From positions 1 to 32,247 of the forward strand of contig CALMRE010000156.1 of assembly GCA_937871295.1 (NCBI GenBank): a stretch of DNA of 32,247 nt, written 5' to 3'. The translations under genes were made by a program, and so were the position numbers. Source of the DNA: an uncultured bacterium (GTDB taxonomy: Bacteria; UBP6; UBA1177; JAKLFG01). The notes under the pieces are model-generated. The model did not search any database and was not told the origin of the DNA. It worked only from the letters and a program-made list of their open reading frames with translations. Position 1 is the first letter of the stretch, and each line of letters begins with the position of its first letter. Below, in pieces: positions 3 to 30,705 of this stretch.

Positions 3-3000
3 ATGGACTGCGAAGACATGAAGGATGAATTCGGCGTGGGCGAACTTCCCGACGATCCGACCGATAGCGACGAATTGACCGACGACGACACCGCGCCCAC
101 CCCGTGCGAACCGAACCCCTGCACCGCTATCGACGACAGTAACGGCGCCTGTACGGTCGACGGCGAAACCTTCATCTGCGGCTGCGACGAGAACTATTCG
201 TGGAACGCGACCGACAAGACCTGCGATCCCGGCATCCGGCGCACCGACTGCGTCAACATTCCGGCGGCGGGAGCGCACGGCACCGGCGACTACAGCGACG
301 GCAAGTTCGAACAGACGTGGGACGGCGAGGCATGGCTTCCCGCGTCGGTGGTCTGCACATGGGAATGCGACACCAACTACACGCTCAACACCAATGAAGA
401 TGGCTGTATCGCCGACACGCAGCGCACCGACTGCGCCAATATCCCGTTGAACGCCCACGGCGCCGGTGAGAACGCCGACGGCAAATTCCTGCAGGTGTGG
501 GACGGCGACAGTTGGGAACCGGCCGTCGCTACCTGCACTTGGGCCTGCGACGCCAACTACACCGTGAATACCGGCGGTGACGCCTGCGAAGCCGACACCC
601 GACGGACCACCTGTACCAATACGTTGCCCGCGAACGCGAACTGGTCCGGGGACAATGCCGACGGCAAGTTCCTCCAGACTTGGGACGGCGATTCATGGGA
701 ACCGGCGACCGCCGTATGCCTGTGGGCCTGCGTGACCAATTATGTCGTCAACACGGCGGGCGACGCCTGCGAGGGAGAGGTCCGTCGCACCGACTGTCCC
801 AATGCCCTGCCCGATAACGCTCACTGGATAGCCCCGAACGCCGACGGCAAATTTGAACAGGCGTGGGACGGCGACAGTTGGGAGCCGGTATCCGACACCT
901 GCGATTTCGCCTGCGATGCGCACCACACATGGAACGGCAATCTGTGCGAACTGGACACTCAGCGCGTTGACTGCGTGAACATCCCGGCCAACGCTCACGG
1001 CACCGGCGACAATGTCGACGGCAAATTCCTTCAGACTTGGGATATCGCCGGTGACGACTGGGCGCCGCTCACTTTCGACTGCTCATGGGAATGCGACACC
1101 AACTACACTCTCAACGGCGAAGGAACCGCCTGCGACGCCGACACGCAACGAGCCGCCTGTACCAATACCCTGCCCGACCATGCGGATTGGAGCGGAGACA
1201 ACTCAGACGGCCAGTTCGAACAGACTTGGGACGGCGGGGACTGGGTGCCCGCGACCTTCGATTGCGCGTGGGAATGTTTTGCGCAGTATGAAAAAACAGG
1301 CGATGAGTGCCTGTTGCGGCCGGTCATTTTTGTCGATCATACCGCGACCGATGGCGCCAATACCGGTTACTCATGGACCGACGCCTTCACCGATCTTTCC
1401 GACGCGCTCGATATGATCGTTACCGGTCAGGAGATATGGGTCGCCGCGGGCACCTACAAACCCTCCCGCTGCCCCTACTTCGACGGCTGTGACGATACGG
1501 AAAAGACCTTCCTGTTGTTCAGCGATACGGGGGTCGATTTCGTCCTGTATGGCGGTTTCGACGGCACCGAAACGACGCGCGCCGAGCGCGACTGGAATGC
1601 CAACGAGACCATTCTGTCGGGCGATATCGCCGGCGACGATGCATGGGATGATGTCAACGGCGGCTGGCTGAACCGCACCGATAATGTCTATCGCGTGTTG
1701 GTGTTCGATCCCGCCATGCCCTCGAATACCCTGCTGTTGGACGGCTTTACCGTCAGCGGCGGGCACAGCGAAGGTATGAATCAGCGGGGAGGCGCTGTTT
1801 CTTCCACCAACCATGCCGTTGAGGTGCGCAACTGCGTATTCACCGGCAATGTTGCTTCGAACGGTGGCGCCATCTTCGTTATCGACGGCCAACTGACCGT
1901 CGATAACGCTTTTTTCTACCGCAATGCGGCCGATCCTTCTTCTTCCGGCAGCGGTGGAGCGATAGCCACCCTGAACGCTCCCCTCTCCCTGACCGACTCG
2001 CTCTTTGAAGAAAACTTCGCCGGCGATAATGCCGGTGCGGTCAGCGGCGGTGGCGATGTGACGATATCCGGCTCTTCTTTCATCAATAACCATGCCGAAG
2101 GAAACGCCGCCGCCCTTTCCATCGGAAATGCGGCTTTGGCAACTATCACCGATACCGATTTTGTCGGGAATACTGCGGTATTCGGCGGCGCCATCGGCAT
2201 AAACACCACCACTTCGGTTATCGTTGCCTCCTGCTATTTCGAAGGCAATGAGGCGATCGACGAAAATGGCACGGGGGGATCCATCAGTGTGACCGCCGAC
2301 TCCTTCTCCCTTTCCAATTCCCAGTTCGTCAACAACAGCGCCTCCATGGGTTCCGCGGTGCAACTCTGGACGGTCGCCGACGCAACGGTGACCTCCGTCA
2401 CCTTCACGGGAAATACCGGTTCCGCGATCTCCGGCCAAGAATGCGCTGTGGTGATCACCGATTCAACTTTTACCGACAATATCGCCGCCGCGAGCGGTGT
2501 CTCCGCCATTGAGATACAGGACGCCTCCTCCCTTTCCATAAGCGGTTCGTCGTTCCTATCGAATGAGGCGAGCAAGAGCACCATTAATGTCAGAGATACC
2601 CTCCTTTTCTCCGTAAACGACTGTTCCTTCCAGAACAACAATGGATCGGCAATAGGTACAGGAGGAACCCCCCTACAGATGGCGGACTGTGATTTCATCG
2701 GCAACCATGCCGCCTCCGGAGCCGCCGTCAACCCCGGCGATGGCGATCACACGATAACCAACTGCCGTTTCAAGGACAATGCCGCCGACCTGCCGGGAGA
2801 ACCGGATAACATCTTTGCCGGCTGGGGCGGGGTCATGGCTATGATGGGGGCGAACATGACGGTCGTCAACTCAGTCTTCGAGGGTAACACCGCGGCCGAA
2901 ACGGGCGGCGCCGTCGTAGCCATCTGGTCCACGCTTTCCTTTACCAACTGCACTTTTACCGGCAACACCGACCCTAACGGTGACGGCATCGTCTACCTCG

Positions 3001-3404
3001 GAACGAACGGTCCCGTCGACAATACCGTACTTTGGGATACGGTGGAAGAGGTCACCACTCTCACGGTCGGAGAGGATGTGTACGACATGGGACCGAGCAA
3101 TCCGACCTTCAGTTACAGCGATGTCAAAGGGAGCGGCGGTAGCGCCATGACCTGCGGTATCGGCGGTGACGAAGCCTGTTGGGTGCTTCCCTTCGGCACC
3201 GACGGCGGCAACAACATCGACCTGCCTCCGGTGTTCGACACCGCCAATGTGAACGATCCGCTGAGTCTGCAGGGTGGCTCGCCCTGTAGGGATATCGGCA
3301 GTAATGCGCTTATACCGGAAGGCATCACCACCGACATACTCGGCAATGCGCGTATCTGGAACACTACTGTCGACATGGGCGCCTACGAGTATTGGGTTGA
3401 ATAG
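3..3404 (+). CDS. Large secreted/surface protein: acidic linker, EGF-like module, six ~60-aa Cys-rich tandem modules, then right-handed beta-helix (polymorphic outer membrane protein-like) ending in a choice-of-anchor-Q-like tail; probably 5'-truncated by the window
   Basis: 1133-aa ORF beginning at base 3 with no signal peptide. CEPNPCTAIDDSNGACTVDGETFICGC is EGF-like; six repeats of the form TQRTDCxNIPxNAHGxGxNxDGKFxQTWDGDxWxPxxxxCxWxCxxNYTxN; then many GGAI / FxxN Pmp-type repeats; C-terminus GITTDILGNARIWNTTVDMGAYEY. Confidence 0.8.
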   Translation: MDCEDMKDEFGVGELPDDPTDSDELTDDDTAPTPCEPNPCTAIDDSNGACTVDGETFICGCDENYSWNATDKTCDPGIRRTDCVNIPAAGAHGTGDYSDGKFEQTWDGEAWLPASVVCTWECDTNYTLNTNEDGCIADTQRTDCANIPLNAHGAGENADGKFLQVWDGDSWEPAVATCTWACDANYTVNTGGDACEADTRRTTCTNTLPANANWSGDNADGKFLQTWDGDSWEPATAVCLWACVTNYVVNTAGDACEGEVRRTDCPNALPDNAHWIAPNADGKFEQAWDGDSWEPVSDTCDFACDAHHTWNGNLCELDTQRVDCVNIPANAHGTGDNVDGKFLQTWDIAGDDWAPLTFDCSWECDTNYTLNGEGTACDADTQRAACTNTLPDHADWSGDNSDGQFEQTWDGGDWVPATFDCAWECFAQYEKTGDECLLRPVIFVDHTATDGANTGYSWTDAFTDLSDALDMIVTGQEIWVAAGTYKPSRCPYFDGCDDTEKTFLLFSDTGVDFVLYGGFDGTETTRAERDWNANETILSGDIAGDDAWDDVNGGWLNRTDNVYRVLVFDPAMPSNTLLLDGFTVSGGHSEGMNQRGGAVSSTNHAVEVRNCVFTGNVASNGGAIFVIDGQLTVDNAFFYRNAADPSSSGSGGAIATLNAPLSLTDSLFEENFAGDNAGAVSGGGDVTISGSSFINNHAEGNAAALSIGNAALATITDTDFVGNTAVFGGAIGINTTTSVIVASCYFEGNEAIDENGTGGSISVTADSFSLSNSQFVNNSASMGSAVQLWTVADATVTSVTFTGNTGSAISGQECAVVITDSTFTDNIAAASGVSAIEIQDASSLSISGSSFLSNEASKSTINVRDTLLFSVNDCSFQNNNGSAIGTGGTPLQMADCDFIGNHAASGAAVNPGDGDHTITNCRFKDNAADLPGEPDNIFAGWGGVMAMMGANMTVVNSVFEGNTAAETGGAVVAIWSTLSFTNCTFTGNTDPNGDGIVYLGTNGPVDNTVLWDTVEEVTTLTVGEDVYDMGPSNPTFSYSDVKGSGGSAMTCGIGGDEACWVLPFGTDGGNNIDLPPVFDTANVNDPLSLQGGSPCRDIGSNALIPEGITTDILGNARIWNTTVDMGAYEYWVE
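231..1320 (+). repeat. Six tandem coding repeats of about 180 bp (about 60 aa Cys-rich module)
   Basis: Six successive copies of [TR]xR-x-x-C-x-N-x-x-P-x-x-A...DGKFxQxWD...W-x-P...C-x-x-x-C in the first ORF; DNA-level conservation in tggGACGGCGAcagttGGGAaCCGG blocks. Confidence 0.85.
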
Positions 3405-3417
3405 TGAGTCGTGAGTC

Positions 3418-5157
3418 GTGAATCGTGAGAAGAAATACCGAATTGTAGGGGCGCGATCCATCGCGCCCCTTTTTCTTTTTTTGTTCCTCATCGCCTGTAA
3501 CGGCGGCAATACGACCACCACTGACGCCGATCTCGACGCCGATCTCGACGCCGACATGACCGATCAGTCGGATCAGTCCGACGATATTCCTGATCTCCCT
3601 GATGTCACCGTCGATGACGATCTCATCGAAACACCCGAAGCCGACCTGCCCGATGAGGATCCAGTCTCTTCGCCGATCATCGTTGCCCTGTCGGTAACGA
3701 TGAATCCGAATCCGGCGGCGCCGCTGGTCGGCGTCGTTACCGCAACCACCGAACCGGCGACCCGCCTGCGGGTGACGCTCGAAAGCAGTGAGGGAAGTGA
3801 AACTATACGCTATACGCAATTGTCGAGTGAACACCGGTTGCCGATCCTTGGCCTCCTGCCGGGGAAGATATATACCGTGACGGCGGCTGCCGAAACGCCT
3901 AACGGTTCAACGAAAACACACCCCAAGAATTTCACGCTGATCACACCTTCTTTGCGCCTTGATTTCCCCGATATACAACATATCAATCATCGACCGGAAG
4001 GACGCGAACCGGGATATATTCTTATTGTACTGGGCAAGGCACAGGGACCTGTCGACGATTTCGGTTTTCACACGGTTCTTTTCGATATCAAAGGCAATAT
4101 CCGCTGGTTTTACCAAAGCGACGGCAGACAGCACGGATTGCAGACGTTGCCTAATGGGAACCTTCTCATGCAGTTTTCTCAAAGAGTTCTTGAGGTCGAC
4201 ATGTTCGGCGACAGCGTCGGCGAATGGCTTGTCGGATCGGCGACCGGAGGTCCGCTTGCGGTCACGGTGGCGGGAGGAAAAAGATTTCATCATTCTGCGA
4301 TACAGACCCTCAACGATACCATAATCGTGCTTGACGATGACACCCGCATGATGGAAAATTACCCGACCAGCGATACCGACCCTGATGCGCCGAAGGATAC
4401 AGTACTCGTAAGAGGAGACGCCGTCATCGAATTCAATCGCGATGGCATCGTTTTAAAACAGCACTATCTTCTCGACATACTCGACCCCTATCGCATTGGC
4501 TATCTCTTTATCCCGGGCAACCAGTGGAGCCACGCGAACTATGCCCTGCCGATCGCCGATGACGACAGTATCGTCGTTTCGGTACGCCACCAGTCATGCA
4601 TCGCCAAATTCGACCGTGTCACCGGCGATCTTCGATGGATCCTCGGCAACCATGAAAAGTGGGACAAGACTTTTGAACCGTTCCTTCTCGCGCCGATCGG
4701 GATACCGTTCGAATGGCAGTGGTATCAGCACAATCCGAAACTCACGCCGGATGACACCTTTCTCGTGTTCGACAACGGAAATTACCGCGCAATGCCTTTC
4801 GATCCACCGTTGATCGCCGAAGAGAACCGGAGCCGCGCCGTCGAGTACCGGGTCGATGAGGTGAACATGACGGTCGAACAAATATGGGAATGGTTTCCCA
4901 ACGAAGACCCTCTCGTATACACGGCAGAACTCGGAGATATCCATCATCTGCCGCAGACCGGCGATGTCGTTGTTACCTTCGGAAGCATTCTCGAGGACAC
5001 CGCCAGAAAAGCGCGCATCTTTGAGGTGACCCATACGGCTCCGGCGGAAGTATTATACGAACTTCGCGTTGACGATATCGTCGCAAATGAGATGGGATGG
5101 ATAGTCACCAGTTCTGCCTTCCGCTCTTCTCTCTACCCCGAAGGGATGATCGAGTAG
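3418..5157 (+). CDS. Arylsulfotransferase (ASST)-like lipoprotein
   Basis: GTG start; lipoprotein signal with lipobox LFLIAC; D-rich linker DADLDADLDADMTDQSDQSDD; ASST-family pattern: FDIKGNIRWFY, HHSAIQTLNDTIIVL, WSHANYALPIADDDSIVVSVRHQSCIAKFDRVTGDLRWILG, WYQHNPKLTPDDTFLVFDNGNYRA. Confidence 0.8.
   Translation: MNREKKYRIVGARSIAPLFLFLFLIACNGGNTTTTDADLDADLDADMTDQSDQSDDIPDLPDVTVDDDLIETPEADLPDEDPVSSPIIVALSVTMNPNPAAPLVGVVTATTEPATRLRVTLESSEGSETIRYTQLSSEHRLPILGLLPGKIYTVTAAAETPNGSTKTHPKNFTLITPSLRLDFPDIQHINHRPEGREPGYILIVLGKAQGPVDDFGFHTVLFDIKGNIRWFYQSDGRQHGLQTLPNGNLLMQFSQRVLEVDMFGDSVGEWLVGSATGGPLAVTVAGGKRFHHSAIQTLNDTIIVLDDDTRMMENYPTSDTDPDAPKDTVLVRGDAVIEFNRDGIVLKQHYLLDILDPYRIGYLFIPGNQWSHANYALPIADDDSIVVSVRHQSCIAKFDRVTGDLRWILGNHEKWDKTFEPFLLAPIGIPFEWQWYQHNPKLTPDDTFLVFDNGNYRAMPFDPPLIAEENRSRAVEYRVDEVNMTVEQIWEWFPNEDPLVYTAELGDIHHLPQTGDVVVTFGSILEDTARKARIFEVTHTAPAEVLYELRVDDIVANEMGWIVTSSAFRSSLYPEGMIE
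3447..3483 (+). terminator. Rho-independent terminator-like hairpin plus T-tract, located inside the signal-peptide codons of the downstream lipoprotein
   Basis: AGGGGCGCGA-TCCA-TCGCGCCCCT: perfect 10-bp stem, 4-nt loop, followed by TTTTCTTTTTTT. Confidence 0.65.
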
Positions 5158-5160
5158 TCG

Positions 5161-6168
5161 TTACCCTTCCAGCAGTCGCTGGCCGCCCGGCAGTCGTTTT
5201 GTGAATAGAAAAAGTTTATACAGGTGATCCTGCAGGCGGGGCGCCCGTTCAAGCAGGGAGAAGAGCCGCTCCTGTTTCCGTTTGAAGGCAAGTATCCGCT
5301 TGAGTTCCGGCATCGCGTAGTTCGTATCCTTCAGTCTGCGGCCCAGTTCGCGGCCGCTGATGACCGCCGTCGATATCCCCTCGCCGGTCGCGCGCAGCGC
5401 CAGTCCCGCCGCGTCGCCGATGAGGTAGAGCCCGTCGTGTTCGACCCCGGCGTAGCGGTGTTCTACCCAGCCGCCTTTCAGCGAAGAGACGGCACTTCCG
5501 GGGAAACGCCGCCCGATCTGTTCGTCGAGCAGGCGGCGGGCGTCGGCGACCGGCATGCGGACCGGATCGAAATAAATCCCGATATTCACCCGGTCGCGGT
5601 GCGGGAACGACCAGAGGTAGGCGGCGCCGTAGCGCGCCGCGTCAAGGATAAGGGTGTAATCGGACGATGCGGCGCGCACCTCACGGTAGAGGCCTAAAGA
5701 ACGGCCGGTCGGCAGTCCCAGAAAGCGCCGGACGGCCGAGAGCGATCCGTCGGCGCCGACGATGCGGTCGGCCGACAATTCGTCGCCGTCGCCGGTAGCA
5801 ATGGTGTGACGATCGATCATGCGGGCACCGGTCCCGACAAGGAACTCGATCCCCGCCCCGTTGGGTATCTTCGCCAACTGGTAACTGGCGAGCGTTTCGC
5901 GCGGTACGGTGAAGCGGGGCGTTTCAAGGCGGAGCCGGTGCCCCTTTCCCGCTATTTCGACGAGTTGTTCGTCGAACCGGAGCGCCGAGGGGGGCACGAG
6001 GTCGGCGGGCATCAGCCGCGACAGCGCTCCGGCGCAGGCTTTCGGGCCGATGATCCGCTGTCGTTCCAGCACTATGACCGATGCGCCCGATCCGGCGAGT
6101 TCGCCGGCGCAGGCGAGCCCCGCCGGACCGGCGCCGATGATGAGTATGTCGCAGTGTTTTTTCGGCAT
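5161..6168 (-). CDS. Geranylgeranyl reductase family FAD-dependent oxidoreductase
   Basis: N-terminal DILIIGAGPAGLACAGELA dinucleotide fold; PKACAGAL; YLWSFPHRDRVNIGI (YxWxFP-type motif); LIGDAAGLALRATGEGISTA. Start set at the internal ATG (MPKKHCD). Confidence 0.85.
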   Translation of the reverse strand: MPKKHCDILIIGAGPAGLACAGELAGSGASVIVLERQRIIGPKACAGALSRLMPADLVPPSALRFDEQLVEIAGKGHRLRLETPRFTVPRETLASYQLAKIPNGAGIEFLVGTGARMIDRHTIATGDGDELSADRIVGADGSLSAVRRFLGLPTGRSLGLYREVRAASSDYTLILDAARYGAAYLWSFPHRDRVNIGIYFDPVRMPVADARRLLDEQIGRRFPGSAVSSLKGGWVEHRYAGVEHDGLYLIGDAAGLALRATGEGISTAVISGRELGRRLKDTNYAMPELKRILAFKRKQERLFSLLERAPRLQDHLYKLFLFTKRLPGGQRLLEG

Positions 6169-6245
6169 GGCCTCTCCCTCTCCGGACTCTTTGCATGGTG
6201 CCTCGCCTGCCGGTGAAAAGCAAGAAAGGAAGCGGCGCGGTTTGA

Positions 6246-6274
6246 TTGACTCTTGCGGCGCCGGACGATATACT
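6246..6274 (+). promoter_or_regulatory. Sigma-70-like promoter for the 6300 gene
   Basis: TTGACT - 17 nt - TATACT, 26 nt upstream of the ATG, with GGGAG between. Confidence 0.6.
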
Positions 6275-6299
6275 GGCGGGCACAAAAGGGAGTTTCCCC

Positions 6300-8378
6300 A
6301 TGTCCGCACCCTCTCCGGCGGCCCGCAGAGCGCTGTTCCGCGCCGTGATCTACGCCGCGCTCGGATCGGTCTTTCAGGTCCTGACGGTCCGCATGCTTTC
6401 CTATGTGTTCCCCTTCCAGATGATCTTCGCGATATCGCTGACCGCCGCCTTCTCGCTCCTGTTCACCGGTGTCGGCGCACTCTTGGCGAAGCGGTTGAAA
6501 ACCCGCACCCCGCTCATCATGGGCCTGACCGGTCTTTCGTTCTTCCTTTCCTTCGTGCTGATGTCGCTCGGGACCCTTCTTCCCAAAAGCGTCATGTTCG
6601 CCGTGACGCTGGAGAACATACTCGCGCTCCTGCCGGGCGGCATGGTCGCCTCCATCCCGCTGGCCGCCGCCGCGGTCGCCGTACCGCTGGTCCTGTCGGG
6701 CGTGCTGGCGGGCGGTTTCTACCTGACGGTGCTCGAGGAGGAGCCGCCGCTCCTCAAATGGCTGGTCGCCGGCACCGCCGTCGGCTTTTTCGCCGGCTAT
6801 GCGGGGACCGCCCTGCTTATCGGCATGACGGGGATTTGGAATTTGATTCTCATCGCGGCGATACTCGCCATGTTCGCCTTCCTGCGGCCGCCGCTTTTCG
6901 CTATTCTTGCGCTCATCGTCGTCGCCGCCGTCACCCTGACCGATCCCGACGCCTATCTTTTCAAGAAACTGGGGCGGGAACCGCTCACGTGGGTACAGGG
7001 AGATCAGGTCACCCATCAACTCGGCTTCTGGTCCCCCTACTCGCGGCTCGATTTCTACGATCTGGGCGACGGTCGGCTGGGCGGCCTCTACAACGGCATC
7101 CAATGGTGGTCCACCGGCGATACGGCGCGCGATATCGGCCTGCGGCGCGAACTCTACCGCGACATGACCGGCGATGTGCTGGTCATCGGATCGGGCGGCG
7201 GCTACGGGCTCCTGTCGCTGGTCAACGCCGGTTCGATAACGGCGGTCGAACTCGATCCGGGCGTCATAGAAGCCCTTCAGGGACCGCTGGCCCGCTACAA
7301 CCGGAACATCTACAACCGGGCCGAGGTCCACGCGCAGGACGGCCGCGCTTTCCTCGACGCCACCGACCGGAAATTCGACATCATAATCTACGAGGCTCCC
7401 GAGTTCGTCTTCGCGAACTCCGAAAAGAGTTTCGTCAGCATGGAGAACCATCTCTACACCGTCGAGGGTATCGCACAGGCCTTCGACCGGTTGAAACCCG
7501 GCGGCGCGTTCATCGTCTTCCATACCTACGGCCTGATACCCACCGAACGCTTCGTCGCGGCCTATCCCGACGGCGCGCAGTGGGCGGTCTTCAAAGCGGA
7601 GGCGGAGGTCATCCGGAAGGTGCAGGTGGTCTTCGCGGTCGCCGCGCGGGAAACCGCCGTCGTCGAAAAATGGCGCGATCTTTTCCTGCGTAACGGCGCC
7701 CGGGAGCTGTCGCTGACCCCCGAGTTCACCGCCGCGGTGCGGCAGGCCGCGCCGGTGACCGACGACCGGCCGCTGCTCCATTTCCGCGACTGGCGGCAGG
7801 CGGTTCCCTTCCTTGCGACCGGCTCCCTCATCGCGCTGGTGCTGACGCTTCTGCTTTTTCTCAAGCGGCCGCGCCGTCTGCCGCTGTTCTTCGCGCTGGT
7901 GGGGACCGGGTTCATCATGACCGAACTGGCGATCATCAATCTGCTGCGCTCCCTGCTGGGCGGCTATGTCGAAACGACCGCCGTCGCGCTCGGGTTTTTC
8001 GCCCTCTCCACCGCCGTCGGGGCGCTCTACCACGACAGGATACCGGCGCGCCGCCTCATCCCGTTGACCCTGGCGGGCTTCGCGATACTGTTCCTTCTGC
8101 TCACCCATCTGCCGGTGGCGGCCGCGTTGCCGGTGAAAATACTCTGGATCGGCGTCGCCGTGAGCGCCCCCGGCTTCATCATGGGGGTCTTCTTCCCGGC
8201 GGGACTCGCGGCGGGGGCCGCCGCCGAATCGCCCTACTTCTACGCGGTCGACACCGCCGGCACCGCGCTCGGCTTCATCCTGTTCTATCTGCTCATTCTC
8301 GCGGCGGGCTTCACCGGCGCCGTCGGCGCGGCGCTCCTCTGCTACCTCGGCGCCGCCTATCTCTATTCCCGCGCCTGA
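6300..8378 (+). CDS. Polytopic membrane protein with embedded spermidine-synthase-like (dcSAM/SAM-binding) domain
   Basis: Hydrophobic segments flank a Rossmann domain: DVLVIGSGGGYGLLSLVNAGSITAVELDPGVIEAL...VHAQDGRAFLDATDRKFDIIIYEAPEF; start at ATG 6300 (MSAPSPAAR). Confidence 0.8.
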   Translation: MSAPSPAARRALFRAVIYAALGSVFQVLTVRMLSYVFPFQMIFAISLTAAFSLLFTGVGALLAKRLKTRTPLIMGLTGLSFFLSFVLMSLGTLLPKSVMFAVTLENILALLPGGMVASIPLAAAAVAVPLVLSGVLAGGFYLTVLEEEPPLLKWLVAGTAVGFFAGYAGTALLIGMTGIWNLILIAAILAMFAFLRPPLFAILALIVVAAVTLTDPDAYLFKKLGREPLTWVQGDQVTHQLGFWSPYSRLDFYDLGDGRLGGLYNGIQWWSTGDTARDIGLRRELYRDMTGDVLVIGSGGGYGLLSLVNAGSITAVELDPGVIEALQGPLARYNRNIYNRAEVHAQDGRAFLDATDRKFDIIIYEAPEFVFANSEKSFVSMENHLYTVEGIAQAFDRLKPGGAFIVFHTYGLIPTERFVAAYPDGAQWAVFKAEAEVIRKVQVVFAVAARETAVVEKWRDLFLRNGARELSLTPEFTAAVRQAAPVTDDRPLLHFRDWRQAVPFLATGSLIALVLTLLLFLKRPRRLPLFFALVGTGFIMTELAIINLLRSLLGGYVETTAVALGFFALSTAVGALYHDRIPARRLIPLTLAGFAILFLLLTHLPVAAALPVKILWIGVAVSAPGFIMGVFFPAGLAAGAAAESPYFYAVDTAGTALGFILFYLLILAAGFTGAVGAALLCYLGAAYLYSRA

Positions 8379-8386
8379 TCCGCGAC

Positions 8387-9805
8387 ATGAAGATCGCGCT
8401 GATACATCCGCGGATCGTCGCGCCGCTCCCGGGCCCTCTGCCCGCCGCGGTCGGCGACCGGTCGGAGATCATGCCGCCGCTCGGGCTCCTCTATCTGGCG
8501 GGCTATCTGCGCGACCGCTCTTCCCACGATGCGGCGGTCATCGACGCGCTCGCGGAACAACTCGATGACGATAAACTCGCGGCGCGTTTGCGCCTCCTGT
8601 CCCCCGCCATCGTCGGAATAACGGCGATGAGCCATACCCTGCGCGACGCCCTTGCCGCGGTCCGCACCGTGAAGCGGACACTGCCCGGCGTACCGGTCGT
8701 CATGGGCGGCCCCCACCCGACCCTCTTCCCCCGCGAGACGCTCGCGCTCCCCGGCATCGACCTCATCATCGCCGGCGAAGGGGAACTGCCGCTGAAACTC
8801 TTGCTCGACGCGCTCGAAACGGGCGACGCGCTCGACACTGTGCCGGGGCTCGGCCGAAAGAGCGGCGGCGCCATGGTGCTTAACGAAACGCTCTGGTATG
8901 CCGACCGGCTCGACGATCTGCCGCCTCCGGCGCGCGAACTGATCCCGCCGGAACTCTACGGCTCGGCCCTTTCGACCCACCGGCCGCTCACCAGCATGCT
9001 CACCTCGCGCGGCTGTCCCTATCACTGTTCGTTCTGCGACCGGCCGCTCCTCAAGGGGAACCGGTGGCGCGCCCACACCGCCGCGGCGGTGGTCGGCGAG
9101 ATGGAGCGGTGCGCGGCGCAGGGCTTCCGGGAGGTGGTCGTCTACGACGATACCTTCACGGTCGACAGACAGCGCGTCCTCGATATCTGCGCCCTTAAAA
9201 TGACGCGGCTCCCCGACCTTCCCTTCACCATCCGCACCCGCCCCGATCTGGTAGACGGGGAGTTGCTTAAAGCGCTTGCCGCGGCGCGCTGCACGGCGGT
9301 CCATTACGGCGTCGAATCGGGCTCTCCGCGGGTCCTCGCGCGGCTATCAAAGGATGCCGATATCGGCAAAGCGGTGGCCGCCTGCGCCGCGACGCGACGG
9401 CTGGGCATGACGACGCTCGCCTACTTCATGATCGGCAGTCCCGGCGAAACGCGCGACGATATCGCGGAGACCTTCCGTCTCATCGACCGCATCGATCCCG
9501 ATTATCTCCATCTGACGGTGCTGATGCCCTTTCCCGGCACGGCGGTGTACCGAGAAATGCTGGATAACGGCCTGCTCAAAGAGGATGTCTGGCGTTCGTT
9601 CGCCGCAGACCCGGAACGGCAGTTCGAGCCGCCGCTCTGGGAGGGAACGTTTTCCCGGGACGAACTCCTGACGCTTCTGCGCCGGGGCTATCGCCGCTTC
9701 TACGGCCGTCCCGGCTATATCCTGCGGCAGTTGGGCCATATCTCATCGCCGCGCGAACTGTTCGTGAAGATACAAAAGGGACTGCGCGTTCTCACGATGC
9801 GCTGA
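8387..9805 (+). CDS. B12-binding-domain-type radical SAM protein
   Basis: N-terminal PPLGLLYLAGYL...VVMGGPHPTLFP...IIAGEGE (B12-binding-like fold); TSRGCPYHCSFC radical SAM CxxxCxxC motif; GVESGSPRVL. Confidence 0.87.
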   Translation: MKIALIHPRIVAPLPGPLPAAVGDRSEIMPPLGLLYLAGYLRDRSSHDAAVIDALAEQLDDDKLAARLRLLSPAIVGITAMSHTLRDALAAVRTVKRTLPGVPVVMGGPHPTLFPRETLALPGIDLIIAGEGELPLKLLLDALETGDALDTVPGLGRKSGGAMVLNETLWYADRLDDLPPPARELIPPELYGSALSTHRPLTSMLTSRGCPYHCSFCDRPLLKGNRWRAHTAAAVVGEMERCAAQGFREVVVYDDTFTVDRQRVLDICALKMTRLPDLPFTIRTRPDLVDGELLKALAAARCTAVHYGVESGSPRVLARLSKDADIGKAVAACAATRRLGMTTLAYFMIGSPGETRDDIAETFRLIDRIDPDYLHLTVLMPFPGTAVYREMLDNGLLKEDVWRSFAADPERQFEPPLWEGTFSRDELLTLLRRGYRRFYGRPGYILRQLGHISSPRELFVKIQKGLRVLTMR

Positions 9806-11228
9806 TGTGCCTCTCCCTGCGGCCGCCCGAGGCGTGCACATGCCGCACCAGCGAAGCGTGATACCGGAGACGCGACAGGAACGGCAGGCGGCGCGGCAGA
9901 CGCCAGAGCAGGCGGAGCATGCGCCACGAAAGATAGAACCGGAGATAGGTTCGCGTTATCAGAGAATTCAGCGGGATCCCGGTCGCCCGTTCATAGCGTG
10001 AGCGGCCCGAATAATAATCGACCGGCTCCTCCGCATCGGCGCCCCACAATTCCTCCGCCATCCGCGCGATCCGGGTATGCCGGAAATAGGCCACTTTGTA
10101 TATCGCCATCATGTCGAGCGCGGGGTCGAGAGCGAGCGTCGCGGTCCGCTCCAGTTCCTCTTCGGTCTCGCCGGGAAAACCCAGCATGAAACAGGCTTTT
10201 GTGACGATGCCGCGCCGGTGCGCATAGCGGATATTGTCCAGCGCCCGGTCGAGATCGAGCCGTTTCCCGACCAGTTCCTGAAGTCGCAAGGATGCCGTTT
10301 CAAGCGGAAAGAGCAGATGATAGACCCCCGCCGCCTTCATGAGGTCGATATCCTCCCCGGTCAGAAGGTCGCCGCGTATTCCGTTGGGAAAAGCGATGAA
10401 TAACTTCCATCCGGCCGACGCGATGCCTCGGAGAATGCGGTGCATCCGGTCGCGGTCGAGATTGAATACATCGTCGACGATATGTGTCTCGCGGATGCCG
10501 TGCCGTTCGTAGAGATAGCCGATCTCCTCCAGCACCCTCTCGGCGCTGCGGGGACGAAAACTCTTTCCCATGGTGTCATGACAGTAGGCGCACCGGTAGG
10601 GACAGCCGCGGGAGGTCATGAGGATGACATAACGCCGATCGGCATTGACGGCGTTCATCGGGGTATGCGGCACCAGATAGCGTTCGATATCCACCGCTTC
10701 GTAGTCGGGCATCGGCAGACGGTCGAGCGGAACGATAAGCGGACGATCGGGAGCAACGACCACCGCGTCGTCCCGGAGAAACGCCGTTCCCGGCTCACCG
10801 CGCGGATCCTCTCCCGCCGCATGACGCCGCACCACGGCAAGAAAGGTCTCCTCCCCTTCGCCGCGTACGACCAAATCCAGTTCCGGGAACTCCTTGAGCG
10901 CCTCTTCGGTGTTGCAGGTCGGATAGGCGCCGCCCGCGACGATAAGAGCGCGGGGCGCCGCGGCGCGGATCGCGGCCAGCCGTTCTTTCAGGAAAGCTTT
11001 CTCGAAGTTCATGAGCGACAGGCCTATGATGGCGGGTTGCGCATCAAGAGCCTTCGCGAGCGCCGCCTCGCGCTCTTTTTCGACCCGCAGATCGATCAGC
11101 GTGACCGCCGCCTCTCCGGGCAGTTCCCGCTTGATATAGGCCGAAAGCATCATGATGCCGAGCGGCAGTTCGAGATTCTGGTAGGCATGGAGATAGGTGT
11201 ACGGCTTTACCAGCAGTACCTTATGCAT
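9792..11228 (-). CDS. B12-binding-domain-type radical SAM protein
   Basis: LPLGIMMLSAYIKRE...VAGGAYPTCNTEEAL...VVRGEGEETF; TSRGCPYRCAYCHDTMGKSFRPRS CxxxCxxC motif; CFMLGFPGETEEEL. Confidence 0.87.
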   Translation of the reverse strand: MHKVLLVKPYTYLHAYQNLELPLGIMMLSAYIKRELPGEAAVTLIDLRVEKEREAALAKALDAQPAIIGLSLMNFEKAFLKERLAAIRAAAPRALIVAGGAYPTCNTEEALKEFPELDLVVRGEGEETFLAVVRRHAAGEDPRGEPGTAFLRDDAVVVAPDRPLIVPLDRLPMPDYEAVDIERYLVPHTPMNAVNADRRYVILMTSRGCPYRCAYCHDTMGKSFRPRSAERVLEEIGYLYERHGIRETHIVDDVFNLDRDRMHRILRGIASAGWKLFIAFPNGIRGDLLTGEDIDLMKAAGVYHLLFPLETASLRLQELVGKRLDLDRALDNIRYAHRRGIVTKACFMLGFPGETEEELERTATLALDPALDMMAIYKVAYFRHTRIARMAEELWGADAEEPVDYYSGRSRYERATGIPLNSLITRTYLRFYLSWRMLRLLWRLPRRLPFLSRLRYHASLVRHVHASGGRRERHISAS

Positions 11229-12081
11229 ACGGAGGACCGACGACCAGCGTACAGAGACAGGCCGCGCCGTACAGAAAACGGTAAAAAGCGCGGTGACGCA
11301 GGAAGCGGTGTTGCCGAAGTTCTCCCCGCAAAAGCGTCGACGCCGACGCGGTATGCAACAGGGAGGCTACGAGGAACGGCAGGCTCTGCGGGAAGCCCCA
11401 CCACCCCGCGCCGTAAAGAACGATCAAGAGGGATGCGCCGCTCACCGCGATGCCGAGGTGCAGCAGTATCCAGCGCCGGATGCCGAAACGGACCGCGCCG
11501 CTTGCGATACCGGCCGCGCGGTCGGCATCGTGGTCGATGAGTTCATGGTTGACATGTCCGGCGCTGAGTATCAGCGCAAAATAGAGCGACAGGAGCAGCG
11601 ATCGCATCCCGGGCTCGCCGATAAGCGCCCATCCCTGCTGGAACTGCGTGATGCCGACGGCGATATGCACGATCGTCCCGGCCAGCGGCACATACTTGGC
11701 GCCGTAGCGCGGGAAGGAGTAGAGGCCCCACAGGAAGAAGATGCCCAACGCGTAGGGTATCGCGGCGGGTCGCAGGAAGGCGAAAAACGCCAGCGCGCCT
11801 GCCAGCGTACCGGCCGAGACCGCGGCATATTCGCGCTCCGAACCGAACCCGGCGGCGGCAAGACGCGGATTGGCGCGGTCTTCGCGCAGACCGGCCCAAC
11901 TGTTGAAAGCATAAATGGAGATGATGACCAGATAGGATGCTACAAAGAACAAAAGCGCACGCGGGCTCCACAGCGCCGCGGGATCAGGCGCGGCGAACAG
12001 CGCGCCGACAAAGGTGAACCCGGAAACGAGAAGCGCTTCGACGCAGCGGTGGCGGCGGAAGACGACCGGCAACTGTTTCAT
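11221..12081 (-). CDS. UbiA-superfamily prenyltransferase-like membrane protein (divergent motif I)
   Basis: Multi-TM protein; motif I position YAFNSWAGLREDRAN, motif II HELIDHDADRAAGIASGAVRFG (DxxxD). ATG start overlaps the upstream stop (ATGA). Confidence 0.72.
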   Translation of the reverse strand: MKQLPVVFRRHRCVEALLVSGFTFVGALFAAPDPAALWSPRALLFFVASYLVIISIYAFNSWAGLREDRANPRLAAAGFGSEREYAAVSAGTLAGALAFFAFLRPAAIPYALGIFFLWGLYSFPRYGAKYVPLAGTIVHIAVGITQFQQGWALIGEPGMRSLLLSLYFALILSAGHVNHELIDHDADRAAGIASGAVRFGIRRWILLHLGIAVSGASLLIVLYGAGWWGFPQSLPFLVASLLHTASASTLLRGELRQHRFLRHRAFYRFLYGAACLCTLVVGPPYA

Positions 12082-13859
12082 TGCGACCGCCGGAAACGGA
12101 ACGCGGCAAGCGTCGGGCTGTCGAAGACCTTTTCCAGAAGCGGAGACCCCTCGAGCATCGAAAGGCCGACCCGGTCTTTCTTCAGTTCCATTCCCTTGTG
12201 GTATACGATCGCCGTGACGCCGCGCCGCGCAAGCCAGCCGACGGCCTCCGGTTCGGGCAGCCGTTCTCCGTGCTGGTAGTAGAGCATGCGCGGTGTCGGG
12301 AAGTAGCCGTTGAGACCGCTCACCGTGGAACGGCGGTGCAGGGACTGCCACTGCATATAGATGAGTTCGCGGTTATACTGAAAAAGATTGTCCCAACTGC
12401 TGGTGAACATCGATATCTCCGACACCTCCAGCCGCGGCTGGCCCGGTTCGCGCCGGATGAAGCGCAGCGGATCGTCGAACACGGCCGGGTCCCAGTTCTC
12501 CACCTGCATATTGAAATGGGAGGGAAGGTCCATGAACACCTCGTTCGGCGCGGTCGTCGCGACGAAGCGGGCGTAGTCGTCGGGCAGTTCTATATACCGG
12601 GCGACCGGCCACGCCTTGAAGGGGATCGGTATATTCTCGACGCCGTGCACGATGAAGACCGCGGCGATAACGGCATAGGCGGCGGCCCGCTTTTTCCCGA
12701 TCAGGAGGCGCACGAGACGGTCGAGCGACAGTCCCGCGCACAGCGACAGGGCAAGTAGCACCAGAAAGTAGGCGCGGTTGGTGACCCGCATATAGGAAAG
12801 GACCGGTATCCACGTGTAGAACGGGTAGAGCGGCGCGGGCGGCAGGAACTCGGCCTGCGGATGATACATCAGGTTGGGGCCGAGCGCGAACACGAACCCG
12901 AACGCCGCGATCAGCAGAAAAAGCCGCCGGTCGCGGTTCCACCGCAGCAGACCGTACACCCCCAACGCGGTCACCAGCAAGCCGATGAGATTGCGGTGAC
13001 GCACGAACCCCCAGTTCTGCGGGAGATCCACCAGCCCGCCGTAGATCGGGTTCTCGGGCAGAGCGGCTATGAAATCGAACGGCATCAGCGAGGTCATCCG
13101 CGCGGTGTAGAGCAGGCCGAAGGGATCGATGACATGCAGACGGGTCACCACGAAAAGGTAGAAGAGGAAATAGGGGATGGCGAGACCCCCGTACAGGGCG
13201 AGCGCCGCCGCCGCTTCGCGCAGGGAGGGGAGCGGCTCTTTTTTCAGCCGCTGATAGAGCAGTATCGCGGCGAGCAGCAGCGTCTGATAGATAAACACAT
13301 AGAGCGAGAAGTAGACCTCCAAGCCGCCGACCGCGGCGGCGGCCCAGAGATAACGCCCCCGCCGTTCACGCAGGTGGCGGACCAGCAGATAGGCGGCGGT
13401 CAGCGGAAGAGCGTAAAAATAGATGATCGAATCGTCTATATGGGCAAAGGCCATGTTCGAACAGGTGAAGGCGAACCCGGCGAAGATCGGCCCCGCACGG
13501 CCCGGCATGAACAGCGTCGCGAAACGGTACACGGCAAAGGCGGTCAGCGCAAAGATGGCCGTGAGATACAGATAGTAGGTCCAGAGATCCGACAGACCGA
13601 ACAGTTTGAGCAACAGGAACATCGCGCAGCAGCCGGGGGTGGACTCTCCGTAGGCGTGGAGATTCTCGATAGGATACATCGCGCGGCCGTATCGTTCGCC
13701 GGTCACCAATTCGTCTATCTTGAGGAGATATTGGTTGGACAGCGATATGAGCAGCCACGAATCGCAGTTGCCGGGAAGCGAGTTCTTCAGCGGGAACTGC
13801 AGAAAAAGAGCCCCGAAGAAAACGGTGTAGAGGATGAATACCGCCAGTCCGCGCCGCAT
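12078..13859 (-). CDS. Large polytopic membrane protein, possible GT-C-type glycosyltransferase
   Basis: About 593 aa, many TM segments, soluble C-terminal domain; MRRGLAVFILYTVFFGALFLQFPLKNSLPGNCDSW... Start at ATG 13859, 2 nt after the upstream stop. Confidence 0.6.
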   Translation of the reverse strand: MRRGLAVFILYTVFFGALFLQFPLKNSLPGNCDSWLLISLSNQYLLKIDELVTGERYGRAMYPIENLHAYGESTPGCCAMFLLLKLFGLSDLWTYYLYLTAIFALTAFAVYRFATLFMPGRAGPIFAGFAFTCSNMAFAHIDDSIIYFYALPLTAAYLLVRHLRERRGRYLWAAAAVGGLEVYFSLYVFIYQTLLLAAILLYQRLKKEPLPSLREAAAALALYGGLAIPYFLFYLFVVTRLHVIDPFGLLYTARMTSLMPFDFIAALPENPIYGGLVDLPQNWGFVRHRNLIGLLVTALGVYGLLRWNRDRRLFLLIAAFGFVFALGPNLMYHPQAEFLPPAPLYPFYTWIPVLSYMRVTNRAYFLVLLALSLCAGLSLDRLVRLLIGKKRAAAYAVIAAVFIVHGVENIPIPFKAWPVARYIELPDDYARFVATTAPNEVFMDLPSHFNMQVENWDPAVFDDPLRFIRREPGQPRLEVSEISMFTSSWDNLFQYNRELIYMQWQSLHRRSTVSGLNGYFPTPRMLYYQHGERLPEPEAVGWLARRGVTAIVYHKGMELKKDRVGLSMLEGSPLLEKVFDSPTLAAFRFRRSQ

Positions 13860-13861
13860 GA

Positions 13862-14803
13862 CTACAGCCTCGCCGGCAGAAAAAAGACCCCGAAAAGCAG
13901 TGCCAGCGCCAACAGCGCGAACCACGCGGCGTAGAGTTTCGCGGCGGCGGGGACGGTGCGGTCGGTCAGGAGCGGCGGCGTGAAGGAAATAAGAGCGACC
14001 GGCACGGCGACGATCGCCAGATCGGGCAGGTCGAGCGGCCGGTCGTGACGCGGCGCGATGAGGTATTCAAAAAACATATAGACCGCGCAGAAGATCACCG
14101 CCGGCACTATCGTGCGCCGCCACGCGACACTGCGGCGGAACCACTCTTTGAGCTCGGGCAGGAAAAGCAGCCCCGACAGCACGACGATGCCGCTCAGGAA
14201 CTGGAACGCGTAGAACTGCTGGGCGCGGAACATCGCCGTCAGTTTGAAGACCGCGTCGTGACTCGGTTCGACCGAGAACCAGCAGAGTCCGGCGGTCAAA
14301 AAGGCGCCGTAGAAGGCCACGCCGGTGTTAAGTATCGTTTTGGGGAGACTGCGGGAAAAGTACCACGATATGCCTATCGTGGCGATCAGCAGCGTCAGCA
14401 GTTCTGGGAACATCAGGAAGTTCTGTTCGTGGCCGTAGTGGAGTGTCAGAAGTTCGCGCGCGATCTCCGCCGGATCGCTGGACACCAGATAGTTGAGTTT
14501 GAACGGGTGGCCGAAGAGGACCGCGTAAAGCGGCGGGATGAATAGGATGATGCCGCCGGGGCCGAGATACATCAGTTGCCCGAACGGCGCCCGCAGTATA
14601 CGCCGGTAGCAGGCGGCGAAGAAAAGGAAAACATAGGTATACCAGAGAAAACGGTGGATCGCGACCATCGGATTGTTGTTGTCGGTAAGTATCTGCATCT
14701 CGACGAAGACCCGGCCGGCGGCCAACAGTTCGAACACCCCGAACAGTATCAGCATCCGCCACGGAAGCGCGATCCGCTCCCACCTGAAAAATGCGGCCAA
14801 CAT
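13862..14803 (-). CDS. Polytopic integral membrane protein of unknown function
   Basis: About 313 aa of hydrophobic segments; TGATG start/stop overlap with the upstream UbiA gene indicates translational coupling. Confidence 0.65.
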   Translation of the reverse strand: MLAAFFRWERIALPWRMLILFGVFELLAAGRVFVEMQILTDNNNPMVAIHRFLWYTYVFLFFAACYRRILRAPFGQLMYLGPGGIILFIPPLYAVLFGHPFKLNYLVSSDPAEIARELLTLHYGHEQNFLMFPELLTLLIATIGISWYFSRSLPKTILNTGVAFYGAFLTAGLCWFSVEPSHDAVFKLTAMFRAQQFYAFQFLSGIVVLSGLLFLPELKEWFRRSVAWRRTIVPAVIFCAVYMFFEYLIAPRHDRPLDLPDLAIVAVPVALISFTPPLLTDRTVPAAAKLYAAWFALLALALLFGVFFLPARL

Positions 14804-15636
14804 CAGGCACGGCCCCCCAGCATATCGACGATCGCCATAAAACCGGTGACGCACAACGCCGCCAACGCGGCCCGTATCAGCCGAGTATACAGGAATGGAA
14901 AAGATTTCTCAAGCGGATGGCGCAGCCGGACATGGATAAGCGTCGCCGCGAGCAGCAGCGGCACCGGCAGGATGAAGTAGCGCCCGCCCTGCGCGAGCGC
15001 CGCGCCGGACCCCGCCAACAGAAAAAGCGATATGCCCCAGAGCGCTCCGGGCGACAATACCGCCCGGATGGAGCGGCGGCCGGCGGCCGCGTCGCCCGCC
15101 GTATCGCCGATATCCTTGAAGATCGTCACCCCCGCGGCGAGCAGGATGAACGACAGTCCGAGCGGCACCTGCGCAGAGTCGCCGGTGATGAAGAAAGGGT
15201 GTATCAGTCCCCACGCCGTTATGATCGCCGCGACGAGCGGATGATCCTTGAACTTGAACGGGCCGGCCGAATAGAGCGTACCGAGCAGCGGGATGAGGAG
15301 CGCCAGAAAAAGGGCCGCACCACGGAACAAAAGCAGGCTTCCGGCGACCGCGAGCACCAGCAGAAGCGCCGTGTAGACCTGTGCCGCCCGCGCCGTCACC
15401 CGGCCCGCCGGGAGCGGCCGTTCCGGATGGTTGATGGCGTCTTCGGTGCGGTCGGTCAACGCGTTGAAGGCATACACATAGTTGTACGGGATGAGGGAGA
15501 GAAAGGCGGCGATACCGATATCGCGCAGGTCGAAGGAGCCGCGCGAAAGGTAGGGACCGGCAAGCGCCGTCAGAAAGGTGATGAAGCAGACATCGGGACG
15601 GTAAAGCCTGATAAGGGCGGTCACTTTCTCACGCAT
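14803..15636 (-). CDS. UbiA-superfamily prenyltransferase
   Basis: YAFNALTDRTEDAINHPERPLPAGR (NxxxDxxxD motif I) and FKDIGDTAGDAAAGRRSI (DxxxD motif II); multi-TM; start at internal ATG (MREKVTALIRLYRPD). Confidence 0.85.
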   Translation of the reverse strand: MREKVTALIRLYRPDVCFITFLTALAGPYLSRGSFDLRDIGIAAFLSLIPYNYVYAFNALTDRTEDAINHPERPLPAGRVTARAAQVYTALLLVLAVAGSLLLFRGAALFLALLIPLLGTLYSAGPFKFKDHPLVAAIITAWGLIHPFFITGDSAQVPLGLSFILLAAGVTIFKDIGDTAGDAAAGRRSIRAVLSPGALWGISLFLLAGSGAALAQGGRYFILPVPLLLAATLIHVRLRHPLEKSFPFLYTRLIRAALAALCVTGFMAIVDMLGGRA

Positions 15637-16229
15637 CGCGGGAAGGCGGTGCCGGCGTTCTCGACCACGATGAAAATGGCGGGGTCGTAAAAGTTGAGGA
15701 CCCACCGCTCGCCGGTGCCGTTCTCGACCGGGGAGGTGGACCAGTGCGGGCCGCAGAATTTATCGCGCCAGACCGTTTCCCAGTAACAGCCGGCGGGGCC
15801 CGGGCCGGTCGCCTTGTTCTCGTCATGGGCGCAGGGATGGTCGTTGTCCTCCTTCGCCCCCTTGTCCTTGCAGGGGTATTCAAGGCACTTTTCGGTCACC
15901 TTGCAGCGCCCGCCCGGTTCGAGATCGGGATAGCCCTCGACCATGGCGCGCAGTTCGTCGATGGTCGGCAGACGCCAGTCGAGGAACCCGGCCCATTCCA
16001 GATCGGCGCAGTACTGATCGGCCTTGTCGCTGGTTATCTGTTTCAGGTAGGTGATCACATTGTCGGGATCGTAACTCTGCCACATCAGGCGGGTCTCCTT
16101 GCCGACGAGCACCTCGTCGCCGTCGATGACCTGCACGGTGTAGGTCTCGTCGAGCGGAGACTCCGGCTCACAGGCGGAAAGGAAGATCGCCGCAGTAAGC
16201 ACGATCGCGGTCGCGTACAGATATTTCAT
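15621..16229 (-). CDS. DUF1566-domain lipoprotein with Cys-rich insertion
   Basis: Lipobox IFLSACEPE; ADLEWAGFLDWRLPTIDELRAMVE...CYWETVWRDKFCGPHWSTSPVENGTGERWVLNF...FPRCVR is the DUF1566 signature; Cys-rich insert CKVTEKCLEYPCKDKGAKEDNDHPC. Confidence 0.78.
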   Translation of the reverse strand: MKYLYATAIVLTAAIFLSACEPESPLDETYTVQVIDGDEVLVGKETRLMWQSYDPDNVITYLKQITSDKADQYCADLEWAGFLDWRLPTIDELRAMVEGYPDLEPGGRCKVTEKCLEYPCKDKGAKEDNDHPCAHDENKATGPGPAGCYWETVWRDKFCGPHWSTSPVENGTGERWVLNFYDPAIFIVVENAGTAFPRCVRK

Positions 16230-28719: not shown

Positions 28720-29376
28720 TCAGGAAAGGAAGTAGGTCTCAGTCGTGGACGGCAGCAACTCGACGATGTCGGTGAAGCCGCGATCCATGGCATACAGACG
28801 CGCCGTCCTGCCGGTATTGTCGCGTATCTCGGTGTTGGCACCGTATTCGAGGTACAGTTTTATCACATCGATCTGTCCCCTCATCGCCGCCTGGATAAGC
28901 GCCGTTTCGCCGAGGTCGTTCTGCAGGTTGATGTTGGCGCCGGCGGCGAGCAGAAGGTGGCCGCGTTCGGGGAGGCAGGTGACGGTGTAGTGCAGCGCGG
29001 TATTGCCTTCGTTGTCGCGGATATCGGGTAGCGCCTGCGCCTCTGCGAGCAGGAACTTGATCATTTTCAGCGTTTCCAGATAGGCGCCGTTCTCGAAATG
29101 GTCCCGCACTTTGTCGCCCAGCAAGCGCACTCCCTTGGCGCAGGCGATCATGAGCGGCGTGAGTCCTTCGTGGTTCTTTTTGTTGATGTCGCCGCCTTCG
29201 CTGAGGTACTTCCGGATGTGGTCGTAGCGGTATTCGCTGACGGCGTCGAAGATGTTGAGGGGCGGGAGGTAGAGGATCTTTTTGATGATCCAGAAGATGG
29301 CGAAAAGGAGCAGAACGAAGATGGAGACGGTTAAAAGTATCTTGGGATCAATGGTTTGACCGTTGAACCACGGCAT
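28720..29376 (-). CDS. Membrane-anchored ankyrin-repeat protein
   Basis: N-terminal TM ILLTVSIFVLLLFAIFWIIKKILYL; ankyrin repeats NHEGLTPLMIACAKG, DNEGNTALHYTVT, NDLGETALIQAAMRGQIDVIKLYLEYGANTEIRDNTGRTARLYAMDRG. Confidence 0.85.
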   Translation of the reverse strand: MPWFNGQTIDPKILLTVSIFVLLLFAIFWIIKKILYLPPLNIFDAVSEYRYDHIRKYLSEGGDINKKNHEGLTPLMIACAKGVRLLGDKVRDHFENGAYLETLKMIKFLLAEAQALPDIRDNEGNTALHYTVTCLPERGHLLLAAGANINLQNDLGETALIQAAMRGQIDVIKLYLEYGANTEIRDNTGRTARLYAMDRGFTDIVELLPSTTETYFLS

Positions 29377-29541
29377 CTTCGTTCACCCGATGAGAACTGC
29401 AAAAACATCGTGCCGGGAGCGGGGAGGAAAGTCAAGAAAGGGGGAAATCTATAAAAATTTAGATGCGACCCCGTCGGGCCCCCTCCTGATACTGATACCT
29501 GATATGTCCTGCTATCACTCGTCCATCTGACTCGCAACTGT

Positions 29542-30544: not shown

Positions 30545-30705
30545 GATATGCTCCTTTTAGTGAATAACAGTATTCTTAATATAAGGAAGCTTTGCCTGAT
30601 CAAAAAAATGAAAGGCGTCTGCCCCGATAAGCAAGCCCTCTGGTATCAGCTCTTTTCTGTCTTGGCAACTTCTCACTACCGCTCCCCCTCCCAACAGGCT
30701 TGTTT

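Follow-up and report, generated by a model that had tools for sequence, protein, structure and literature searches.

We analysed a stretch of 32,247 nucleotides (the window), which is contig C156 of the genome of an uncultured bacterium (G000; 3.45 Mb, 271 contigs, 99% complete), and in particular a set of genes at positions 5161 to 15636. A preliminary description had read these genes as one compact cluster that makes or modifies an unusual isoprenoid-derived lipid or polyprenyl carrier. All genes of the interval were verified, with profile-search matches to their families far above chance, and the gene types that had been listed do exist: a geranylgeranyl-reductase-family enzyme (GGR), two UbiA proteins (UB1 and UB2), two B12-binding radical S-adenosylmethionine (SAM) proteins (RS1 and RS2), a spermidine-synthase-like protein (SPE) and two polytopic proteins, here called GTC and TM330 (Table 1).

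Table 1. Genes of the interval and its two neighbours (window coordinates; aa, amino acids; TM, transmembrane).
Gene	Position	Strand	Description	Basis
GGR	5161-6168	-	FAD-dependent geranylgeranyl-reductase-like protein, 335 aa, start ~6168
SPE	6300-8378	+	Membrane protein, spermidine-synthase-like SAM-binding domain in its centre	PF01564, E=7e-8
RS1	8387-9805	+	B12-binding radical SAM protein, CPYHCSFC motif
RS2	9792-11228	-	B12-binding radical SAM protein, CPYRCAYC cluster motif
UB1	11221-12081	-	Divergent UbiA-superfamily protein, 286 aa	PF01040, E=1e-19
GTC	12078-13859	-	Apparent GT-C-fold integral membrane glycosyltransferase, 593 aa	Predicted model
TM330	13862-14803	-	Polytopic protein, ~9 TM helices, no family or fold match
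UB2	14803-15636	-	UbiA-superfamily prenyltransferase, 277 aa	PF01040, E=3e-22
Lipoprotein	15621-16229	-	Lcl_C domain; first gene of the packed run	PF07603, E=9e-12
ASST lipoprotein	3418-5157	+	Arylsulfotransferase	PF05935, E=1e-61

The genes fell into three units: a minus-strand run from 15636 to 9792, a plus-strand pair (6300-9805), and GGR on the minus strand (6168-5161). Together with the lipoprotein gene that precedes it, the minus-strand run reads lipoprotein, UB2, TM330, GTC, UB1 and RS2, with overlaps of 16, 1, 4 and 8 bp (the last between UB1 and RS2) and a single gap of 2 bp between TM330 and GTC. This spacing suggests that the genes from the lipoprotein to RS2 are carried on one transcript with coupled translation. 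RS1 and RS2 are convergent, their ends overlapping by 14 bp, and the interval as a whole is therefore not one operon; GGR and SPE are divergent and separated by 131 bp. Thus, the compact neighbourhood described earlier is real and conserved in the host's family, but it is not a single transcriptional unit. Rfam matches in the window were limited to tRNAs, with no riboswitch or other element.

GTC had no match in Pfam or NCBIfam. Its AlphaFold model, built from 16 sequences, had a predicted local distance difference test score (pLDDT) of 73 and a predicted template modelling score (pTM) of 0.79. The top Foldseek match of this model was the yeast oligosaccharyltransferase (OST/STT3; 5.7e-8), and AftD (5e-6), DPY19, AglB and AftA were also found, with PglB and ArnT as weaker matches. 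AftD and AftA are among the glycosyltransferase-C (GT-C) enzymes that use polyprenyl-linked donors, and in GT-C enzymes the loop that follows helix 1 holds the catalytic aspartate. In GTC, the alignment and the model placed an invariant GN(C/T)D motif in this loop, the first external one, and a soluble domain lies at the C terminus. Judged from the model, GTC looks like a GT-C-fold glycosyltransferase, and this match shifts the reading of the locus from lipid modification towards lipid-linked glycosylation. TM330 also had no match in Pfam or NCBIfam, including the known flippase families (MATE, SMR/GtrA), and its model showed nine helices at a fair pLDDT of 78; going by gene position alone, it may be a flippase or a partner subunit. 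Where TM330 is missing, a membrane protein of ~170 aa with no Pfam match adjoins GTC (L028:4058-4570, L029:9970-10485, L034:10523-11026 and L035:1897-2439), and it is possibly a replacement partner of GTC.

The two UbiA proteins differed in their metal-site motifs. UB2 carries both Asp-rich motifs of the superfamily in canonical form (NALTDRTED and KDIGDTAGD), while the first motif of UB1, NxxxGxxxD, has a glycine in place of the second metal-site aspartate and is followed by a second motif, HxNHELIDxxAD. This glycine (G64) and the H, N and D residues were invariant in 11/11 aligned UB1 orthologs. The UB2 profile matched chlorophyll synthase (2.7e-15) and the digeranylgeranylglyceryl phosphate (DGGGP) synthase of Methanocaldococcus jannaschii (3.2e-15), and its best scores lay in the DGGGP synthase, chlorophyll synthase and homogentisate group, above the MenA, MqnP and UbiA models; none of the equivalog models was reached (DGGGP synthase, 55.6 bits; cut-off, 296). 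No solved structure matched UB1. A tree was built with Escherichia coli UbiA, MenA and CyoE, the M. jannaschii DGGGP synthase, chlorophyll synthase, and the genome's own synthase of the decaprenylphosphoryl-phosphoribose (DPPR) type, and in it UB1 (support, 98/98) and UB2 (91/93) formed clades of their own. Neither protein reached a quinone prenyltransferase equivalog score or grouped with E. coli UbiA, MenA or CyoE, in a tree whose long branches make the deeper groupings unreliable. As far as profiles and tree can place them, UB1 and UB2 both stand outside the characterised clades of quinone, heme and chlorophyll enzymes and of DPPR synthases, which supports the preliminary description, where family placement had been proposed as a check. 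Plasmid searches with UB1 and UB2 as queries gave no match.

Conservation was followed across the 25 genomes of the host's order (families f1 to f3) and 36 genomes outside it; the host's own family, f1, comprises five genomes, G000 to G004. The block was found again in three other f1 genomes (G002, G003 and G004), which keep GTC and have the same gene order as far as their contigs extend, and the strongest links within the family joined UB2, TM330, GTC and UB1. In G002, GGR, SPE, RS1, UB1 and GTC lie together and UB2 is on a separate contig; the set in G003 and G004 is a diverged SPE, RS2, UB1, GTC, TM330 and UB2, without RS1. A UDP-xylose-synthase-like epimerase adjoins SPE at the place of GGR in G004. 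G001, of the same genus as G000, holds at this site only the lipoprotein gene and diverged copies of UB2 and TM330, and the lipoprotein gene adjoins UB2 in G003 and G004 as well. Across the order, GTC was present in 21/25 genomes (about 40% identity or more), UB1 in 22/25 and UB2 in 24/25, and orthologs of these three were found in 0/36 genomes outside it. The sole pairing outside f1 was that of GTC with TM330, in four genomes of three genera. The conservation of the neighbourhood thus held within the family, and beyond it only this pair stayed together.

The remaining genes of the interval were distributed differently. RS1 and RS2 are 31% identical, and both combine a B12-binding domain with a Radical_SAM domain (E about 1e-25 for the latter). 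Orthologs of RS1 (64% identity) occur in G002 only and those of RS2 (64-66%) in G003 and G004 only, all within f1, so that the two substitute for one another in relatives and co-occur only in G000. The closest NCBIfam models of RS1 were ApyD and HpnJ, both far under cut-off (HpnJ, 151 bits versus 578). GGR scored 115.8 bits with TIGR02032, under the cut-off of 158.8, and has the motifs YLWSFP (YxWxFP) and GDAAG; on these features it is assigned as a distant member of the geranylgeranyl reductase family. It was rejected as a core gene, being present in four genomes only (G000, G002 at 79% identity, G018 and G022) and having unrelated neighbours where isolated. SPE scored only 26-34 bits with spermidine synthase models (cut-offs, 250-472) and lacks the catalytic Asp pair, the aminopropyltransferase DxxD being replaced by ExxE (YEAPE, read by inspection). 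Membrane proteins with a SpeE-like domain gave 7 matches in G000, SPE itself and six at other places, and SPE was rejected as a cluster-specific enzyme because its family is multi-copy. GGR, SPE and the radical SAM genes, which had been counted as cluster members, are therefore accessories that come and go and stand outside the widely conserved core.

Related genes were found elsewhere in the host genome. Its UbiA proteins number four (UB1, a UB1 paralogue, UB2 and one of the DPPR-synthase type), none of them resembling MenA, UbiA or CyoE. The UB1 paralogue is encoded on contig C112 (L047:4607-11701) with two GT-C-like proteins of ~735 aa (LA_3751 family, under cut-off), a PlsC-like acyltransferase and an epimerase of the UDP-xylose-synthase-like kind, and the same set is present on contig C75 of G001 (L079). 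This epimerase was named by eye from its sequence, and no NCBIfam model scored above its cut-off. Contig C219 (L048:9850-12651) encodes a decaprenyl-phosphate phosphoribosyltransferase (245 bits; cut-off, 234); the gene adjoins a short-chain dehydrogenase/reductase (SDR) epimerase and an inositol-phosphatase-like gene, an arrangement that resembles a polyprenyl-pentose donor pathway. The only trans-prenyl-diphosphate synthase found was a geranylgeranyl diphosphate (GGPP) synthase, the enzyme that the preliminary description had suggested looking for, on contig C27. On contig C238 (L146:2056-9868), HpnC, HpnD and HpnE accompany a protein of the oxidosqualene-cyclase type, which scored 715 bits with TIGR03463 (cut-off, 851) and 293 with the hopene cyclase model (cut-off, 431). 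Contig C23 of G001 (L148) has such a set too, and this is possibly a sterol or triterpenoid locus of the lineage.

We tentatively favour, at somewhat less than an even chance, the explanation that the core run UB2-TM330-GTC-UB1, with RS2 in some genomes, builds a cell-envelope glycoconjugate that is either anchored or carried by an isoprenoid. In this proposal, UB2 and UB1 would make or charge a prenyl lipid in the membrane, TM330 may move it across, and GTC would transfer a sugar from a polyprenyl-linked donor at the outer face; the polyprenyl-phosphoribose synthase on C219 could supply a plausible sugar donor. RS1 or RS2, GGR and SPE would provide lineage-variable tailoring that methylates, saturates or otherwise decorates the lipid or the sugar. 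We infer one shared pathway from the gene order in one family together with the shared retention across the order; the sequence of steps, every substrate and the part of TM330 in transport are likewise proposals. The glycoconjugate explanation draws on the gene overlaps and conserved order in f1, the fold matches of GTC, the order-specific families, the donor enzyme on C219 and the known architecture of UbiA, flippase and GT-C proteins. It draws also on the UB1 paralogue that adjoins GT-C-like genes and an epimerase on C112 and C75, and on the same epimerase beside SPE in the G004 block.

Several observations weigh against this explanation. The confidence of the GTC model is moderate, and TM330, the other polytopic protein that had been left unassigned, still had no match in a fold search against the PDB (best E=0.5). 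The block in the window contains no sugar-nucleotide enzyme or phosphatase, and with the polyprenyl-phosphoribose synthase model (PRK12324) UB2 scored 35 bits of 234 and UB1 gave no match. Outside f1, UB1, UB2 and GTC are dispersed among unrelated neighbourhoods. GTC is missing in G001, G009 and G017 and UB1 in G006, and the three are therefore not strictly co-dependent. A bolder form of the proposal seems unlikely to us: a new pathway, particular to this order, whose two UbiA enzymes belong to undescribed clades, one of them with a rebuilt metal site, and would produce a prenyl-ether sugar lipid. A new GT-C family would use or glycosylate this lipid, B12 radical SAM enzymes would modify it further, and the result would be a membrane lipid class new to any organism. 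Overall, the block is real, conserved and uncharacterised, and it is narrower and better defined than in the earlier reading, whose enzymes stand while its emphasis on an unusual lipid or carrier has moved towards lipid-linked glycosylation.

The strongest of the rivals, which we also consider unlikely, is that UB2 is the lineage's prenyltransferase for a quinone or similar aromatic compound, placed in this neighbourhood by chance, with GTC and UB1 in separate envelope functions. As none of the four UbiA proteins of G000 is MenA-, UbiA- or CyoE-like, UB2 would be the likely enzyme if a quinone is made, and it is order-wide and in most genomes does not neighbour GTC and UB1. However, the scores of UB2 favour the DGGGP synthase, chlorophyll synthase and homogentisate group, its clade is its own, and in f1 it forms part of a tight run with TM330 and GTC. 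A slightly less probable alternative is that there is no single pathway, only independent genes for membrane enzymes that have gathered at one site in this family. The multi-copy nature of SPE, the patchiness of GGR and the radical SAM genes, and the dispersal of UB1, UB2 and GTC in the rest of the order are consistent with this, while the overlapping and conserved UB2-TM330-GTC-UB1 run and the recurrence of the GTC-TM330 pairing in another family argue against it.

Lipid substrates of other kinds fared worse. Decoration of a carotenoid, with UB1 and UB2 as lycopene elongases and GTC glycosylating a C45/C50 carotenoid, is improbable. The window has no carotenoid partner gene, as had been stated, but the genome has several: a phytoene synthase and a CarR-type lycopene cyclase lie with the GGPP synthase on C27, and phytoene/squalene synthases occur in 5/5 f1 genomes. 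They occur in none of the f2 and f3 genomes that carry UB1, UB2 and GTC, so a carotenoid cannot be a requirement of the core families, and this substrate is largely refuted for the core; a carotenoid role for GGR and RS1, within f1 only, is possible. Tailoring of a sterol or hopanoid is more improbable still: the HpnJ score of RS1 and the Hpn and cyclase genes on C238 point that way, but G002 (92% complete) has GGR, SPE, RS1, UB1 and GTC without the squalene-synthase pair and in G001 the cyclase locus is present but the block is not, and we rejected this substrate because partner genes and block occur apart. The weakest candidate, an archaeal-type isoprenoid ether lipid with UB2 as DGGGP synthase and GGR as its reductase, was implied by the earlier suggestion to look for GGPP and glycerol-1-phosphate enzymes and had in its favour the profile match of UB2 (3e-15), the GGR-like reductase in the block and the archaeal lipid genes known in some bacteria of the Fibrobacteres-Chlorobi-Bacteroidetes (FCB) group (PMC7852524), but it is refuted unless a non-homologous geranylgeranylglyceryl phosphate (GGGP) synthase exists, since that enzyme (PF01884) was absent from G000 and over cut-off nowhere in the order, with positive controls detected, most genomes with UB2 have no GGR, and UB2 forms a separate clade and does not group with DGGGP synthase at equivalog level.

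At the window's left end (3-5157), a large beta-helix repeat protein gene precedes that of the arylsulfotransferase (ASST), and several beta-helix paralogues occupy the same place in G002 and G004. ASST adjoins the block in three f1 genomes (G000, G002 and G004), and its membership of the system is uncertain. At the other end (28720-32247), the GC content falls to 0.50 and genes for ankyrin-repeat proteins and an Mrr-type restriction endonuclease are found; this is possibly a mobile or defence segment.

The order-wide presence of UB1, UB2 and GTC, with none in the other sampled genomes, would mark a basic envelope feature of the order. GTC stands without a curated family, and UB1 shows that strong conservation can maintain a UbiA protein whose metal site is altered; if the product were named, it could define a new lipid or glycan class together with a GT-C family, and its identity would test whether modules of UbiA and GT-C enzymes reach beyond pentofuranose transfer.

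Literature searches for a cluster of UbiA with GGR, or of GT-C with radical SAM genes, gave no match, and we compared the locus with systems that share parts of it. Like HpnJ, HpnR and rSAM_ladder_B12 of hopanoid and ladderane pathways, the RS proteins have a B12-binding domain, a radical SAM domain and an intact CxxxCxxC motif, but they scored only 62-151 bits (cut-offs, 360-650) and no triterpenoid or ladderane genes lie nearby. UB2 is nearest by profile to the DGGGP synthase/chlorophyll synthase branch (6m31, 9sas) and shares its NxxxDxxxD, RPLPxG and KDxxDxxGD motifs, whereas its own clade, its scores far under the equivalog cut-offs and the lack of a chlorophyll gene in the window set it apart. 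Mycobacterial arabinan assembly uses the DPPR synthase Rv3806c and the GT-C enzymes AftA and AftD. The matches of the GTC model to AftD and AftA and the DPPR-synthase-family gene elsewhere in G000 recall that system, although GTC has no sequence similarity to AftA or AftD and the DPPR synthase lies outside the block. The closest likeness is to the three-component systems for pentofuranose side chains, in which a UbiA-family polyprenyl-phosphoribose synthase acts with a MATE flippase and a GT-C enzyme of GT136 (Kelly et al. 2024, PMC11127046). Here, too, a UbiA protein, a polytopic protein and an apparent GT-C enzyme (model pLDDT, 73) are encoded together, with an epimerase in one relative. However, profiles do not place UB1 or UB2 among the polyprenyl-phosphoribose synthases, the KRxRP stretch of the genome's DPPR synthase is missing from UB2, the genuine synthase is outside the locus on C219, TM330 has neither a MATE nor another known fold, and a second UbiA and the B12 radical SAM enzymes are additional. 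Since its UbiA proteins and putative flippase are of other types, the core may work like a three-component system without being a member of that group.

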